This document shows positions 45,701 through 60,602 of a stretch of 64,000 bases of DNA, in pieces. Under the pieces are notes generated by a model that was not told where the DNA came from, made no database searches, and saw nothing but the letters and a program-made list of their open reading frames with translations. The stretch covers positions 558,001 through 622,000 of the forward strand of contig JAXHMM010000003.1 in assembly GCA_034521445.1 (NCBI GenBank), in the 5' to 3' direction. Every line of letters starts with the position of its first letter. The first letter of the stretch is position 1. The translations under genes and the position numbers were made by a program. Source of the stretch: Balneolaceae bacterium. GTDB taxonomy: Bacteria; Bacteroidota; Rhodothermia; Balneolales; Balneolaceae.

Positions 45701-46660
45701 TTACCCTGTCCGGTTCCGAAACTGCTCGCGGATGAAGCCGCTTCCGTAGCCCGTCAGCTGTACCAGGGAGGTGAACACTGCCAGGGCGCCCACGCGGAGG
45801 CTGCCGGTGATCACGCCGGCGTGCATCAGCAGGGTGGCCAGGAAGAGGCCGAAGGGCATGCTGAGCCAGCCGAAGAGGGGAGGGTTGAGCGGGATCAGCA
45901 GTAGGTAGCAGGCCAGTCCCACCGTAAAAAGGGCAGGCAGCGCATGCACCCATTTGATCTCCCCGGGATGGAAGCGGGCGATATTAATACGCGCACGGCC
46001 GAAAAAGTGGGCCTGGCGGAAGAAGTCCCCCAGGCTGGTGCGCCGCTTGTGATAGACCCAGGCGTCGGGGATGAGTCCGGTGCGGAAACCCTGCTTGATA
46101 ATGCGCAGGCTGAACTCGATGTCCTCGCCCATGCGCGTGATGCGGTAGCCGCCGGTGGCGCGGTAGACCTCGGCCGAGATGCCCATATTGAAGCTTCGCG
46201 GGTGGAAGGTACCGGCGTGGCGGGCGTTGCCCCGTATACCGCCGGTGGTGAGGGGGGAGGTCATGGAGTAGCTGATGGCCTTCTGCAGCGGGGTAAAATC
46301 GTCGTGTGCACGGTCGGGTCCCCCCCATGCATCCAGCGGCTGCTGGTCCAGGTGGTTGCGGACGATACGGAAATAGTCGGGGGGCACCAGGCAGTCGGAG
46401 TCAAAGACTACGTACCAGTCGCCGCGCGCCCGGTCGAAGCCGTAGTTGCGGCTGAAGCCCTGTCCGCTGTTCTCCTTGTAGAAATAGCGCAGGTTGAGGC
46501 GGTCCTGGAATTCGCGCGCCACATCTTCACAGGGCTCGGAGGAGCCGTCTTCCACGATGAGCACCTCAAAGTCGGTGAACGTCTGTTTGGCAAGGCTTTC
46601 CAGAAGCTCCCTGACTTCGTCGGGACGGTTGTAGACGGGCACAATCACCGAGAAAGTCAT
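45701..46660 (-). CDS. Family 2 glycosyltransferase, membrane-anchored
   Basis: 319 residues. GT-A fold start FSVIVPVYNRPDEVRELLES, DxD-type VFDSDCLVPPDYF, and GEDIEFSLRI as the acceptor ED motif. Two to three membrane helices follow (~230-300). It probably builds a polysaccharide or glycolipid at the inner membrane. Its start codon lies inside the left end of an AAGTC array (gaaagtcat), so that repeat borders its ribosome-binding region. Confidence 0.88.
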   Translation of the reverse strand: MTFSVIVPVYNRPDEVRELLESLAKQTFTDFEVLIVEDGSSEPCEDVAREFQDRLNLRYFYKENSGQGFSRNYGFDRARGDWYVVFDSDCLVPPDYFRIVRNHLDQQPLDAWGGPDRAHDDFTPLQKAISYSMTSPLTTGGIRGNARHAGTFHPRSFNMGISAEVYRATGGYRITRMGEDIEFSLRIIKQGFRTGLIPDAWVYHKRRTSLGDFFRQAHFFGRARINIARFHPGEIKWVHALPALFTVGLACYLLLIPLNPPLFGWLSMPFGLFLATLLMHAGVITGSLRVGALAVFTSLVQLTGYGSGFIREQFRNRTG

Positions 46661-46796
46661 AAAGTCTCTAAAGTCCTACAAGTCCAAAAGTCCAGAAGTC
46701 GGAAAGTCAAAAAGTCATAAAGTCCACCGACTTTTGGACTTTTTGACTTCAAGACTTATTAGACTTAGTTAGTTAGACTTGGTGGCTTTCAGACTT
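46653..46796. repeat. AAGTC/GACTT array A (between clpC and a glycosyltransferase)
   Basis: About nine AAGTC words, then about seven GACTT words, spaced 8-12 bp apart and able to fold on each other as a long imperfect hairpin. It includes aaaagtccagaagtcgg and gacttattagactt, both also in array B (57331-57475). On the minus strand the array starts inside the last codons of clpC (CAA GTC TAA) and ends at the glycosyltransferase start. Confidence 0.8.
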
Positions 46797-54961: not shown

Positions 54962-55210
54962 TTACTCTTTGTAGAAGTAGACGACCTTCTCCTTGGGATG
55001 CTTGCTGCTTTTTACTTTGCTGCCGGTCTCCTTGTTGTAGTTGTACACTACATTGCGCATGGAGTTGAGCTCGGAGTCGTCCTTGAATTTTACTTCAAGG
55101 GCCTTGCCGCCCTTTTCCAGTTTCTTGACGGCCTCCAGTAGAGGTTGGTATTTGGAAGAACTTTTCTTTGATACACTCACGTCGTCACGGGATACGATAT
55201 TAATCTTCAT
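54962..55210 (-). CDS. Hypothetical small basic protein
   Basis: 82 residues, Lys-rich, with one helix plus strands (YQPLLEAVKKLEKGGKALEV, VVYNYNKETGSKVKSSKHP). No family recognised. The lysine spacing and the segment VVYNYNKETGSKVKSS fit a nucleic-acid-binding or phage-like small protein, but this is conjecture. A 187-bp gap separates it from the moxR gene. Confidence 0.6.
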   Translation of the reverse strand: MKINIVSRDDVSVSKKSSSKYQPLLEAVKKLEKGGKALEVKFKDDSELNSMRNVVYNYNKETGSKVKSSKHPKEKVVYFYKE

Positions 55211-55397
55211 TGTTTTTGCTGTCTTTATAGAAGTCGGTTGTAAGAAAGAGTGAATCTAACAATAAAACAACTGTATTTACAGGTGGTTCTTGTAGTATTC
55301 ACTCTATTTATCCTTATTTGTTCCACAACCAAAACCAATATTACTGTCCGGGGATTCCATCCGGGACAAAAAAATGGTCGCCAGGAGGAGCCGGGGA

Positions 55398-56405
55398 TCA
55401 AGGAACCTGGACGGTGGAGAGAATGGTCTCGACCAGGTCTTCGGAGCTAATCTCCTCGGCTTCGGCCTCAAAGGTGGGAATAACGCGATGGCGCAGCACG
55501 TCCATCGCGATGGTCCGCACGTCTTCGGGGGTTACGTAGGCACGGTGTTCCATAAAGGCGCGTGCACGCGAAGCCAGGTTGAGATTGATGGAAGCGCGGG
55601 GAGAGGCCCCGAAATTAATCAGCTCGGCCAGATCCTCCATTTCGTAGCTCGCAGGATCGCGGGTGGCGAAAATAAGGTCGACGATATACTGCTCCACCTT
55701 CTCGTCGATGTAGATCTCGTTGACCACCTTGCGCGCCTCGAGCACCCTTTCAGGCGTGATGACGGGATTGAGCTTCTCCTTGCGTCCGGTACGTGCCTGC
55801 CGGCGCATGATCTCAAGCTCTTCCTTTTCGGTGGGATAGTCGATGACAATCTTCATCATGAAGCGGTCCACCTGTGCTTCGGGCAGGGGATAGGTGCCTT
55901 CCTGCTCGATGGGGTTCTGCGTGGCCAGCACCAGAAAGGGCTCATCCAGTTCGAAGGTATTCTCGCCGATGGTTACCTGCAGTTCCTGCATGGCCTCCAG
56001 CAGGGCGCTCTGAACCTTGGCCGGGGAGCGGTTGATCTCGTCGGCAAGGATGATATTGGCGAAGATGGGGCCTTTCTTGACGGTAAACTCGGCCTCCTTC
56101 TGGTTGTATATGAGTGTGCCGATCAGGTCGGCCGGCAGTAGATCGGGGGTGAATTGCAGTCGCTGAAACTTGGTGCTGATCACCTGTGCCAGGGAGGAGA
56201 CCGTGAGGGTCTTGGCGAGCCCGGGCACGCCCTCCAGCAGCACGTGGCCGTCGGCCAACAGGCCGATAAGCAGCCGGTCGATCATATACCTTTGCCCGAC
56301 AATTACCTTGTCAAGTTCCTGGTAAATCTCATCGATGAAGGCGCTCGACTTCTCAATCTTTTCGCCGAGCTCCTGCATGTCGACCGTCGCTGGGGATGTA
56401 TCCAT
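55398..56405 (-). CDS. MoxR-family AAA+ ATPase
   Basis: 335 residues from MDTSPATVDMQELGEKIEKS. Walker A GVPGLAKTLTVSSLA, Walker B NIILADEINRSPAKV, sensor ATQNPIEQEGTYPLPEAQ, arginine finger region RFMMKIVIDYP, and the AAA lid. MoxR ATPases act as chaperones for von Willebrand-factor-A proteins; the usual DUF58/VWA partners are not next to it here. It is divergent from uppP with a 96-bp gap. Confidence 0.93.
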   Translation of the reverse strand: MDTSPATVDMQELGEKIEKSSAFIDEIYQELDKVIVGQRYMIDRLLIGLLADGHVLLEGVPGLAKTLTVSSLAQVISTKFQRLQFTPDLLPADLIGTLIYNQKEAEFTVKKGPIFANIILADEINRSPAKVQSALLEAMQELQVTIGENTFELDEPFLVLATQNPIEQEGTYPLPEAQVDRFMMKIVIDYPTEKEELEIMRRQARTGRKEKLNPVITPERVLEARKVVNEIYIDEKVEQYIVDLIFATRDPASYEMEDLAELINFGASPRASINLNLASRARAFMEHRAYVTPEDVRTIAMDVLRHRVIPTFEAEAEEISSEDLVETILSTVQVP

Positions 56406-56501
56406 GGCGTGCGTATGAGTTTTATAATTTGTTCTGCATTTGACTATTTTCCGGCGCGTGAAAAACAACCGCCTGCCGCCGGCAGGCACCAAAGGTAACA
56501 A

Positions 56502-57317
56502 ATGGAGATCATAGATTCTTTCTTATTGGGACTGATCCAGGGCCTCACCGAATTTCTGCCCATCAGCTCATCCGGACACCTGGTACTGGCCGGCGCCCTT
56601 CTGGAGGACGATCTCGATCGCAGCATCACCTTTGAGGTAGTGGTGCACTTCGGGACCCTTTGCAGTATCCTGCTCTACTACCGCACCACCCTGGCGGAGA
56701 TGGCGGTCTCGCTTTGGGACGCGCTGCGCGATCCCTCCTCGGCCAAAGGGGAGGAGGGGTATGATCCTAACGTGCGTATGGCCGGTTTCATTTTGCTGAG
56801 CATGGTTCCCGCTCTTATTGTGGGACTTACCCTGAAAGATACCATTGAGGATGTCTTCCTGGCTCCCTTTCCCGTCTCGGTCATGCTGCTGGTCACCGGC
56901 ACTATCCTGTTCGCCACACGCTTCCGCAGCAGTTTCCCCAACCGCCTGGGCTCCGGCAGTGCGCTGGCCATCGGCGTGGCCCAGGCCTTTGCCATCCTGC
57001 CCGGGGTGAGCCGCTCCGGAACCACCATCTCGCTGGGACTCGGCCTGGGCATCAAGAGGGAGGAAGTGGCCAATTTTTCCTTCCTGATGGTGATTCCTGT
57101 GATCGCCGGCGCCATGCTGGTGGAGGTAGTCGGGCTGGCGCAGGCGGGCGTGGATTCTGCCGCGCTGGGCGCGTTGACCGTAGGCTTTCTGACAGCTTTT
57201 GTCTCGGGCTACTTCGCCTTGAAATACCTGATTATCCTGTTGAAGACCCGCGGAATCCATCCCTTTGCCTGGTACTGTTGGGCGCTTGGGGGTTTTGGAC
57301 TATACATCTTCGCTTGA
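56502..57317 (+). CDS. uppP: Undecaprenyl-diphosphatase
   Basis: 271 residues, eight membrane segments. BacA marks: LIQGLTEFLPISSSGHLVLA and ILPGVSRSGTTISLG with the catalytic Ser/Arg. The enzyme recycles undecaprenyl pyrophosphate for cell-wall synthesis and confers bacitracin tolerance. Its last codons form the left arm of a 22-bp inverted repeat, with the TGA stop in the loop. Confidence 0.95.
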   Translation: MEIIDSFLLGLIQGLTEFLPISSSGHLVLAGALLEDDLDRSITFEVVVHFGTLCSILLYYRTTLAEMAVSLWDALRDPSSAKGEEGYDPNVRMAGFILLSMVPALIVGLTLKDTIEDVFLAPFPVSVMLLVTGTILFATRFRSSFPNRLGSGSALAIGVAQAFAILPGVSRSGTTISLGLGLGIKREEVANFSFLMVIPVIAGAMLVEVVGLAQAGVDSAALGALTVGFLTAFVSGYFALKYLIILLKTRGIHPFAWYCWALGGFGLYIFA

Positions 57318-57340
57318 TAGCGAAGATGTATAGTCCAAAA
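57293..57340. repeat. Perfect 22-bp inverted repeat across the uppP stop codon
   Basis: TTTTGGACTATACATCTTCG plus CT (57293-57314) is matched by its exact reverse complement at 57319-57340, with a 4-nt loop TGAT that contains the uppP stop codon. The right arm runs straight into the AAGTC array (agtccaaaagtc). Confidence 0.9.
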
Positions 57341-57475
57341 GTCTAATTAAAGTCGAAAAGTCCAGAAGTCGGGAAGTCAAAAAGTCGGTGGACCTTCGGA
57401 CTCCACGACTTTACGACTTTCTGACTTATTAGACTTTAAGACTTTTTAGACTTTCAGACTTTCAGACTTTTACAT
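57331..57475. repeat. AAGTC/GACTT array B (between uppP and nuoJ)
   Basis: AAGTC-type words (57331-57400), a central gtggacc/ggactccac turn, then GACTT-type words to 57475 (gacttattagactttaag...agactttcagactttcag). It shares aaaagtccagaagtcgg and gacttattagactt with array A. The two halves can fold together as a long imperfect hairpin. Confidence 0.8.
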
Positions 57476-57505
57476 AGTTTTGGAGCCTTAATTTAAACCG
57501 GAGAT

Positions 57506-58027
57506 ATGGTCACCTACGTATTTATCTTCCTGGCCCTGCTGGCCATAGCCTCGGCACTGGGCATGGTCATCAGCCGAAACACGGTCAACAGCGCCCTTTT
57601 CCTGGTGCTCAATATGGTCTCCCTGGCGGGTATCTACCTGCTGCTGGAGGCACAGTTCCTGGCCGTCATACAGATCCTGGTCTACGCCGGTGCCATCATG
57701 GTACTCTTTCTCTTTGTCATCATGCTGTTGAACCTGGATGCCGAGAAGTCGCTTTTCAATCGCTTCCGGGCCCGCTATTTTGTGGCATTTCTGCTGGGCG
57801 TGGCACTGTTGACGCAGATTCTTTACAGCGCGGGCGGCATGGCTGGCGTGCTCCCCGAAATTTCGCCCGAAATGAGCAGCGTGGGCACCGTGGAAGCGGT
57901 AGGCGATGTGCTCTTCACCACCTATCTGCTGCCCTTTGAAATCACGGCCATCCTGCTGACAGCCGCCGTGGTTGGGGCCCTTGTCATTGCACAACAAAAA
58001 ATAAAGCCCAAGGCCGAGAATGATTGA
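57506..58027 (+). CDS. nuoJ: NADH-quinone oxidoreductase subunit J
   Basis: 173 residues, five membrane helices. NuoJ marks: SRNTVNSALFLVLNMVSLAG, YLLLEAQFLAVIQILVYAGA, IMVLFLFVIMLLNL. It belongs to the membrane arm of complex I. nuoK overlaps its end by 8 bp. nuoA-I genes are not in the window. Confidence 0.95.
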   Translation: MVTYVFIFLALLAIASALGMVISRNTVNSALFLVLNMVSLAGIYLLLEAQFLAVIQILVYAGAIMVLFLFVIMLLNLDAEKSLFNRFRARYFVAFLLGVALLTQILYSAGGMAGVLPEISPEMSSVGTVEAVGDVLFTTYLLPFEITAILLTAAVVGALVIAQQKIKPKAEND

Positions 58028-58322
58028 CATTGACTGGTTCCTTGCGCTCAGCGCCGTGCTCTTTTGCATTGGCATCGTAGGCGTGCTTGTACGAAAGAAC
58101 GCCATCGTGATTTTCATGAGTGTGGAGCTCATGCTGAATGCCGTCAACCTTACGCTGATCTCTTTCAGCAGTTACTATGGGAATATCGAAGGCATAATCC
58201 TCGTCTTCTTCGCCCTTGCCGTAGCTGCCGCCGAAGCGGTGGTGGGACTGGCCATCATCATCGCCATCTTCCGCAACAACCTCTCGGTGGATATCAGCAA
58301 GGTAAACCTGCTACGCTGGTAA
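58020..58322 (+). CDS. nuoK: NADH-quinone oxidoreductase subunit K
   Basis: 100 residues, three helices. The Glu residues needed for proton coupling are in MSVELMLNAVNLTLI and VAAAEAVVGLAIIIAIF. It overlaps nuoJ by 8 bp, so coupled translation is expected. A 258-bp gap without a recognised feature precedes nuoL. Confidence 0.95.
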   Translation: MIDIDWFLALSAVLFCIGIVGVLVRKNAIVIFMSVELMLNAVNLTLISFSSYYGNIEGIILVFFALAVAAAEAVVGLAIIIAIFRNNLSVDISKVNLLRW

Positions 58323-58580
58323 TCGGACGGCTGCTCGAAAGCCAGCCTTTCCGGCGCCCGGCATTCGCCGGTATAACGGACCGGATTTCTGTCTGTTGCT
58401 GCGACCCGCCCGTGCGCTTCCATTAGGCCGCATTTTGGGCCTCAGCATCATCCATTCAACATTCTTTGCCACTTTTTATATCTTGGGCATCAGCTAATTT
58501 CTCCTTGGGAAAGCAGCATGGATTAGCTACCTTTGAGGCAAAATTTTTCGAGGACCCTCGTAACGGAACCGCTCCCTTAG

Positions 58581-60602
58581 ATGGACTCTGCTACAGCGCT
58601 TATTGTACTGATTATCGGCTTGCCGCTGGCCGGTTTTCTTGTTAACGGATTACTGGGGCTTTCGTCCCCCTCGTGGAGGCGCAACCGCTCTCTTATCGGC
58701 ACCATCTCCAACCTGGCCGTCTTCGTCCCCTTCGTGGCGGCATTCTGGTTCTTCCTGAACATGAGCGAGGGCTCCGACGCCCTCTACGTGAGCCTTTTCC
58801 GTTGGATGGAAGCGGGCAGCTTCTCGGTGGATATCGCCTACCAGGTGGATCAACTCTCCATCGTGATGACGCTGGTGGTGACGGGCGTGGGTTTCCTGAT
58901 CCACCTCTACTCCATCGGCTACATGTGGGATGACCCGGGGTACTGGAAGTTTTTCGCCTACCTGAACCTCTTCATCTTCGCCATGCTCAACCTGGTACTG
59001 GCGGACAACCTGCTGCTGCTCTTCCTGGGCTGGGAAGGCGTGGGACTCTGCTCCTACCTGCTCATCGGATTCTGGTACAGCGACATGGCCAAGTCGGCCG
59101 CCGCCAAGAAGGCCTTTATTTACAACCGGGTGGGCGACTTCGCCTTCCTGGTCGCCATGTTTATGATCTTCCAATATATAGGCAGCCTGCGCTTCGAGGA
59201 GATCCTGGCCGCGCTCGACGCCATTCCCGCCGACCAGAAGTTCTGGATTGGCCTGTTGATGTTTATCGGCGCCACCGGCAAGAGCGCGCAGATACCCCTG
59301 TTTGTCTGGCTGCCCGACGCCATGGCCGGCCCGACTCCTGTCTCCGCTCTTATTCACGCGGCCACCATGGTGACCTCCGGCATCTACCTCATTTCGCGCA
59401 TGTCGCCCATGTTCGTGATGTCGCCTGAGGTCATGATGATTATCGCCGTGATCGGGGCGCTCACCGCGCTGGTCGCCGCCACCATCGCCCTCACCCAGAA
59501 CGACATCAAGAGGGTGCTGGCCTACTCCACCGTCTCGCAACTGGGCTACATGTTCCTGGCCCTCGGCTCAGGCGCCTTCACCGCCGCCATTTTTCACGTG
59601 GTCACCCACGCCTTTTTCAAAGCCTGTCTCTTTCTGGGTTCCGGCTCGGTGATTCACGCCATGGAACACGTGGAGCACGGGCTGGAGGAAGAGGGGCGGG
59701 ACGTGCACTTCGATCCGCAGGATATGCGGAACATGGGCGGGCTCAAAAAGTACATGCCCTCCACCTACTGGACCTTCATGCTGGCGACGGTGGCCATAGC
59801 GGGTATTCCGCCGCTGGCCGGTTTCTTTTCGAAGGACGAGATCCTGGCCTTCACCTTTAACGCCGGCTTCGGCGAATATGCCGGGGCCCTTTATTTCGTG
59901 CTCTGGGGCGTGGGAATTCTCACGGCCTTCCTGACCGCATTCTATATGTTCCGCCTCACCCTGGGCACTTTCAACGGACCTTTCAAGCTGCCCGGCCGCA
60001 TTGAAGGGGCCGAGGGGGCCGAGAAGCATCTGCACGAGAATCCCCCCTCCATGACCATACCTCTCTGGACCCTCGGAGGACTTTCGGTGGCGGGCGGACT
60101 GCTGGGCGTGCCTAATTTCCTGCTGGCCACCTTCACCCACGAGGAGGAGCACATCAACCTGCTGCACAACTGGCTGCACAACGTGAATGCCGATGCCGTG
60201 CTGGGACTCTCCCACGCTGCCGAGTGGGGGCTTATGGGACTCTCGGTTGCCGTGGCTCTGGGCGGCGTATGGACCGCCTGGCGCATGTACGGCGCCGGAG
60301 CCACCGAAGAGTCCGATGCGCGGATCGCCACCCGCTTCGGAGCCCTCTACCGCACCTGGAATGAGAAGTACCGCCTGGACGAATTCTACGAGGGCGTGGT
60401 GGTGAATCCCCTGGTACGCTTTTCGGACCGGGGACTCGCCGCCTTCGACATGAAAATTGTGGACGGAGTGGTCAACACCGTGGGTGGCATCGTGCGGCTC
60501 TTCGGCAGCCTCATCCGCTACACCCAGACCGGGGTAGTCAGCTCCTACGCCCTCGCCCTGGTTATAGGGGTGATCATCGTACTCAGTCTACTGATCCTGT
60601 AA
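58581..60602 (+). CDS. nuoL: NADH-quinone oxidoreductase subunit L
   Basis: 673 residues, the antiporter-like proton pump with the long lateral helix at the C-terminus. Marks: FLGWEGVGLCSYLLIGFWY, ATGKSAQIPLFVWLPDAMAG, PTPVSALIHAATMVTSGIYL and NDIKRVLAYSTVSQLGYMF. It starts 258 bp after nuoK and precedes nuoM by 15 bp. Confidence 0.96.
   Translation: MDSATALIVLIIGLPLAGFLVNGLLGLSSPSWRRNRSLIGTISNLAVFVPFVAAFWFFLNMSEGSDALYVSLFRWMEAGSFSVDIAYQVDQLSIVMTLVVTGVGFLIHLYSIGYMWDDPGYWKFFAYLNLFIFAMLNLVLADNLLLLFLGWEGVGLCSYLLIGFWYSDMAKSAAAKKAFIYNRVGDFAFLVAMFMIFQYIGSLRFEEILAALDAIPADQKFWIGLLMFIGATGKSAQIPLFVWLPDAMAGPTPVSALIHAATMVTSGIYLISRMSPMFVMSPEVMMIIAVIGALTALVAATIALTQNDIKRVLAYSTVSQLGYMFLALGSGAFTAAIFHVVTHAFFKACLFLGSGSVIHAMEHVEHGLEEEGRDVHFDPQDMRNMGGLKKYMPSTYWTFMLATVAIAGIPPLAGFFSKDEILAFTFNAGFGEYAGALYFVLWGVGILTAFLTAFYMFRLTLGTFNGPFKLPGRIEGAEGAEKHLHENPPSMTIPLWTLGGLSVAGGLLGVPNFLLATFTHEEEHINLLHNWLHNVNADAVLGLSHAAEWGLMGLSVAVALGGVWTAWRMYGAGATEESDARIATRFGALYRTWNEKYRLDEFYEGVVVNPLVRFSDRGLAAFDMKIVDGVVNTVGGIVRLFGSLIRYTQTGVVSSYALALVIGVIIVLSLLIL

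Follow-up and report, generated by a model that had tools for sequence, protein, structure and literature searches.

Intergenic repeats with heptamer units include the STRRs of cyanobacteria. Further repeats of this kind, with the unit TAACTGA, have been found in Beggiatoaceae, Cyanobacteria and some Bacteroidetes, and in Beggiatoaceae they mostly precede start codons (PMC4679880). The REP/BIME elements represent another type; they form hairpins at the 3' ends of genes or in the gaps between convergent ones, and the REPs share one conserved palindrome (PMC3733652). Regarding the origin of hairpins, template switching is known to copy the nascent strand and thereby to make an imperfect palindrome perfect (PMC7202029), and it can create the stems of RNA hairpins in one event (PMC8794818). 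In the genome of a member of the Balneolaceae, we analyzed a window, i.e. a whole stretch of 64 kb, in which the gene uppP ends in a perfect palindrome that runs into an array of AAGTC-N3 octamers. The right arm of this palindrome probably arose by template switching (snap-back), as a copy of the 3' end of uppP made where the array meets the gene.

The AAGTC-N3 arrays resemble the STRR and TAACTGA-type repeats in being short-unit direct repeats, which are dispersed between genes, patchy across lineages and have no known mechanism of spread. However, their unit is not 7 nt but 8 (sometimes 9) nt long with a fixed AAGTC, a variable N3 and a polar composition, their half-arrays often form inverted pairs, and their outer end lies on stop codons. 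Collecting array loci of this genome by pattern and similarity yielded approximately 73 loci (22 palindromic, 51 one-sided) with 95 blocks, a total that is possibly somewhat low; further analysis covered the array stretches and a 400-kb sample of the genome. The pattern AAGTCNNNAAGTC matched 431 times compared to 11 matches in the control, while it was found 0-8 times in 57 relatives; likewise, triples of AAGTC octamers occur 251 times here and at most four times in each of 127 other genomes of the order. The array family is unique to this genome among the 128 genomes of the order, and a search of the literature found no published report of such arrays in Balneolaceae. Most units are 8 nt long (n=393), followed by 9 nt (n=118) and 7 nt (n=20), and the spacers have a G+C content of 0.15 at the outer end, which increases to 0.62 by the sixth spacer. 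The blocks are mostly intergenic, since only 3 of 96 were called inside an ORF. Based on ORFs near arrays that we chose ourselves for their length and codon composition, the 3' end of a gene adjoins 55 blocks with a median gap of -2 nt, and in 40 of these the first units overlap with the stop codon; another 34 blocks adjoin a gene start with a median gap of 8 nt. It was also observed that the AT-rich outer end of the arrays sits on stop codons and often supplies the stop. One apparent array between gene calls (L098, 5163-5428) was regarded as a stretch coding for a protein repeat and left out, its units reading as Glu-Val-Glu-Glu-Ser codons.

At the end of uppP, the two arms form 22 of 22 possible pairs around the 4-nt loop TGAT (Table 1). 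The coordinates and the ORF agree with a preliminary description of this DNA, which had claimed a perfect 22-bp inverted repeat with the uppP stop codon in its loop. It is the longest perfect inverted repeat with a loop of at most 12 nt in the window, the next one having 14 bp, and the number of 22-bp repeats of this type expected by chance is about 8e-8 per 64 kb. The right arm was also said to merge into the AAGTC array, and indeed its last 9 nt together with the next 3 nt read AGTCCAAAAGTC, an in-phase array unit. The array comprises 131 nt at 57339-57469, or 57332-57469 when the unit common to the right arm is counted. The predicted folding energy of the 48-nt hairpin as RNA is -34.5 kcal/mol (z = -15), in line with the very stable mRNA structure at the stop codon that had been proposed, and the array contributes further stability to the region (Table 1).

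Table 1. Features of the uppP-nuoJ region and of further array-linked hairpins; positions refer to the 64-kb window.
Feature	Position	Strand	Description
uppP (undecaprenyl-diphosphatase, BacA family)	56502..57317	+	ORF, 271 aa; Pfam BacA E=4.6e-74; 66-72% identity to Fodinibius homologues
Left arm	57293..57314	+	TTTTGGACTATACATCTTCGCT; ancestral copy; covers the final seven sense codons of uppP and one more base; conserved G-L-x-x-F C-terminus, equal length in relatives
Hairpin loop TGAT	57315..57318	+	holds uppP stop TGA (57315-57317) as three of four loop bases
Right arm	57319..57340	+	perfect reverse complement of left arm; end AGTCCAAAA in phase with array; absent in relatives
Forward half of octamer array (AAGTC-N3 units)	57332..57386	+	first unit common to right arm
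Centre of palindromic array	57387..57406	.	GGTGGACCTTCGGACTCCAC; similar centres at other loci
Reverse half of array (GACTT-N3 units)	57407..57469	-	pairs with forward half; region -95.6 kcal/mol, z=-9.6
Probable -7 promoter element	57475..57484	+	TAGTTTTG, type TAnnTTTG; before nuoJ, adjoins array end; resembles TACCTTTG before nuoJ in relatives
nuoJ (NADH dehydrogenase chain 6 family)	57506..58027	+	Pfam Oxidored_q3 E=8.7e-41
Second array of the same family	46654..46796	.	without perfect gene-end hairpin
Hairpin at L080, cytidylyltransferase(-like)			21 bp, loop TTTC; ORF continues through right arm, stop in first array unit
Hairpin at L118, QtmA-like			17 bp, 1-nt loop; stop within right arm; array 7 nt further
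Hairpin at L073			12 bp; loop TGAT holding TGA stop
Hairpin at L063, PFK		-	10 bp; stop TGA at loop

The comparison with Fodinibius and other relatives allowed us to distinguish the two arms. The order uppP-nuoJ is common to the window and Fodinibius, where the gap between both genes measures approximately 50-130 nt and contains neither the array nor the hairpin nor the right arm. The C-terminus of UppP is conserved as -GLxYFW-stop or close to it in Fodinibius and reads -GLYIFA-stop at equal length in the window. Because the relatives keep this C-terminus and the position of the stop codon without the right arm, the left arm is regarded as inherited and the right arm as new. Hence, the locus shows two of the features expected of a template-switch product, a perfect inverted repeat with a short loop and an ancestral arm paired with a new copy, a third expected feature being an imperfect palindrome in the sequence before the event. 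The preliminary description had suggested a recent snap-back copying event. Its templated origin is well supported by the left arm being the conserved gene end, by the absence of the right arm in relatives and by four further cases, while the word recent follows from the perfect pairing only.

These four further cases are gene ends abutting arrays, which carry perfect hairpins straddling or adjoining the stop codon with loops of 1-4 nt (Table 1). In two of them, homologues show again which arm is the older one: the left arm at L080 corresponds to the conserved DWK-SAE stretch, while the right arm replaces the tail, and the left arm at L118 encodes the conserved C-terminus of the QtmA-like protein. 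The stems of the five hairpins have no common sequence and vary also in length and loop. In a 400-kb control sampled from the genome, with 358 ORFs, the sole hairpin overlapping a stop codon with a stem of at least 10 bp was the array-linked one at L118. A script applied to all sequence analyzed counted hairpins at 3 of 63 gene ends flanked by an array and at 2 of 564 without one (p=0.008). This count was corrected by hand: L118, whose array contains fewer perfect units than the script required, was moved to the array group, and L080, whose ORF had been lost to an overlapping call, was added. With stems of at least 10 bp, the corrected numbers are about 5 of 65 array-flanked versus 1 of 563 other gene ends (p~6e-5); these p-values are guides rather than formal tests, because of the hand correction and because the thresholds for stem and loop were set after seeing the data. 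The remaining case without an array (L097) is terminator-like with flanking A- and T-runs. A hairpin at L119, which was considered as a further case, is an ordinary terminator. Since four other genes show a hairpin where an array touches the gene end, copying linked to the arrays is favoured, and the data point to array-linked errors in DNA replication or repair and not to a one-off event or artefact.

Regarding the mechanism, the growing strand probably folded back over the 4-nt loop when replication or repair crossed the uppP/array junction, copied some 22 nt from the end of uppP and then re-annealed into the array at the array-like AGTCCAAAA; the polymerase step itself is what we infer. The GTC units of the array may seed the fold-back when they pair with a GAC among the last codons. 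At each of L063, L080, L073 and L118, GTC is paired with a GAC close to the loop, but the full GACT is present in only three of the five arms (binomial p~0.009, post hoc), while the uppP loop has no GAC/GTC seed and shows the array-like match AGTCCAAAA at the outer end of the stem instead. The idea of seeding by GTC/GAC arose post hoc and is no more than suggestive. Across the array-flanked gene ends, GACT is not significantly enriched (p=0.09) and is thus not required for array placement. The outcome resembles quasipalindrome template switching, as observed with thyA/lacZ reporters in E. coli (PMC7202029) and for RNA stems (PMC8794818), where a short reverse-complement copy likewise results in a perfect repeat with a small loop. 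It differs from quasipalindrome mutations in recurring at sites where a dispersed array of octamers meets the stop codon of a gene. The hairpin itself is most likely a tolerated by-product of mutation, because it is located at and after the stop codon.

A sub-variant of the snap-back explanation assumes that the array was inserted by microhomology-mediated repair, so that the copy would be the footprint of the insertion and not an error made once the array was in place. The start of the arrays right at the stop codons of the 55 gene ends mentioned above, the continuous phase of right arm and array, and the fold-back end AGTCCAAAA, which matches a unit present in other arrays, are consistent with such an insertion. 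However, about 60 of the 65 junctions are without fold-back, a search for a donor array had no success, and neither arm of a palindromic array is a copy of the other, which makes this sub-variant possible but rather unlikely. A snap-back origin of the palindromic arrays themselves was also considered and rejected, since the two arms of one locus resemble each other no more than arms from different loci do (mean rank 0.65).

A selected RNA element, in which the hairpin acts as transcription terminator or 3'-end stabiliser and the array is part of the element, appears quite improbable. The very stable fold and its position exactly at the gene end, which is found in five of five cases at gene 3' ends, would agree with such a role, as would the frequent location of palindromic arrays between convergent genes. 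Nevertheless, the stems vary in sequence, length and loop, and about 60 of the 65 array-flanked gene ends manage without a hairpin. An intrinsic terminator was rejected, because the stem ends in AAAA followed by GTCTAATT without a U-tract and no terminator-like site was detected, whereas ordinary T-run terminators exist elsewhere in the genome (L107, L114, L119). Such terminators are likewise strong hairpins after a gene, but the hairpin of uppP has its left arm within the coding sequence. Rfam models gave no match in the region 55000-59000. The hairpin will also form in the mRNA. There it might influence peptide release or nuo read-through, as suggested in the preliminary description, or the expression of nuo. 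The REP/BIME elements likewise are hairpins found at the 3' ends of genes and in the gaps between convergent ones, but the REPs share one conserved palindrome (PMC3733652), while the hairpins reported here copy each host gene, and the comparison of the five stems revealed no single palindrome repeated throughout the genome.

Finally, an assembly or library artefact, i.e. a fold-back chimera from sequencing, is highly improbable, because, although the genome is a draft assembly of 18 contigs and fold-back artefacts do exist, all five independent cases have short arms (10-22 nt) and lie at array junctions, with none at other gene ends bar one terminator, the sequence runs on into the array and the syntenic nuoJ with the same gene order as in relatives, and the 400-kb control contains only 15 inverted repeats of at least 10 bp with loops of at most 6 nt, so that a random chimera is unlikely.

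Snap-back copying at the array/gene-end contact belongs to a mechanism that is known in kind; what is unexpected is the recurrent link to octamer arrays anchored at stop codons. The signature at these contacts provides a testable handle on how arrays of short units arise and move, and it shows how a single step can produce perfect hairpins and, as in L080, new C-termini of proteins. At that locus (1541-1594), the snap-back copy is now coding and gives the cytidylyltransferase-like protein the new C-terminus RVFQHSSKS before the stop in the first array unit. Going further, the AAGTC-N3 arrays might be a new type of dispersed repeat, for which template switching is the means of spread or growth and a stop codon the end point, with the hairpins as footprints, but we consider this extension doubtful.

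Some additional observations concern the uppP-nuoJ gap and the arrays themselves. The region of the -33 element before nuoJ is occupied by the array, while the -7-like element is kept. Because TAGTTTTG, which we take to be a -7 promoter motif, survives beside the array, nuoJ may retain its own promoter; in the DNA alignment with relatives, TAGTTTTG and TACCTTTG were not placed in register. In another genus (L024, about 2300-2400), the same gap harbours a different array composed of AAAACTC heptamers. A pair of these heptamers is present in 14 of 58 genomes of relatives, with a similar score for the reversed control pattern, because the heptamer unit is nearly symmetrical. Moreover, the two halves of one palindromic array (L071, 1597-1691) have a perfect repeat of 32 bp in common, far longer than in other arrays, which suggests a recent conversion between them.
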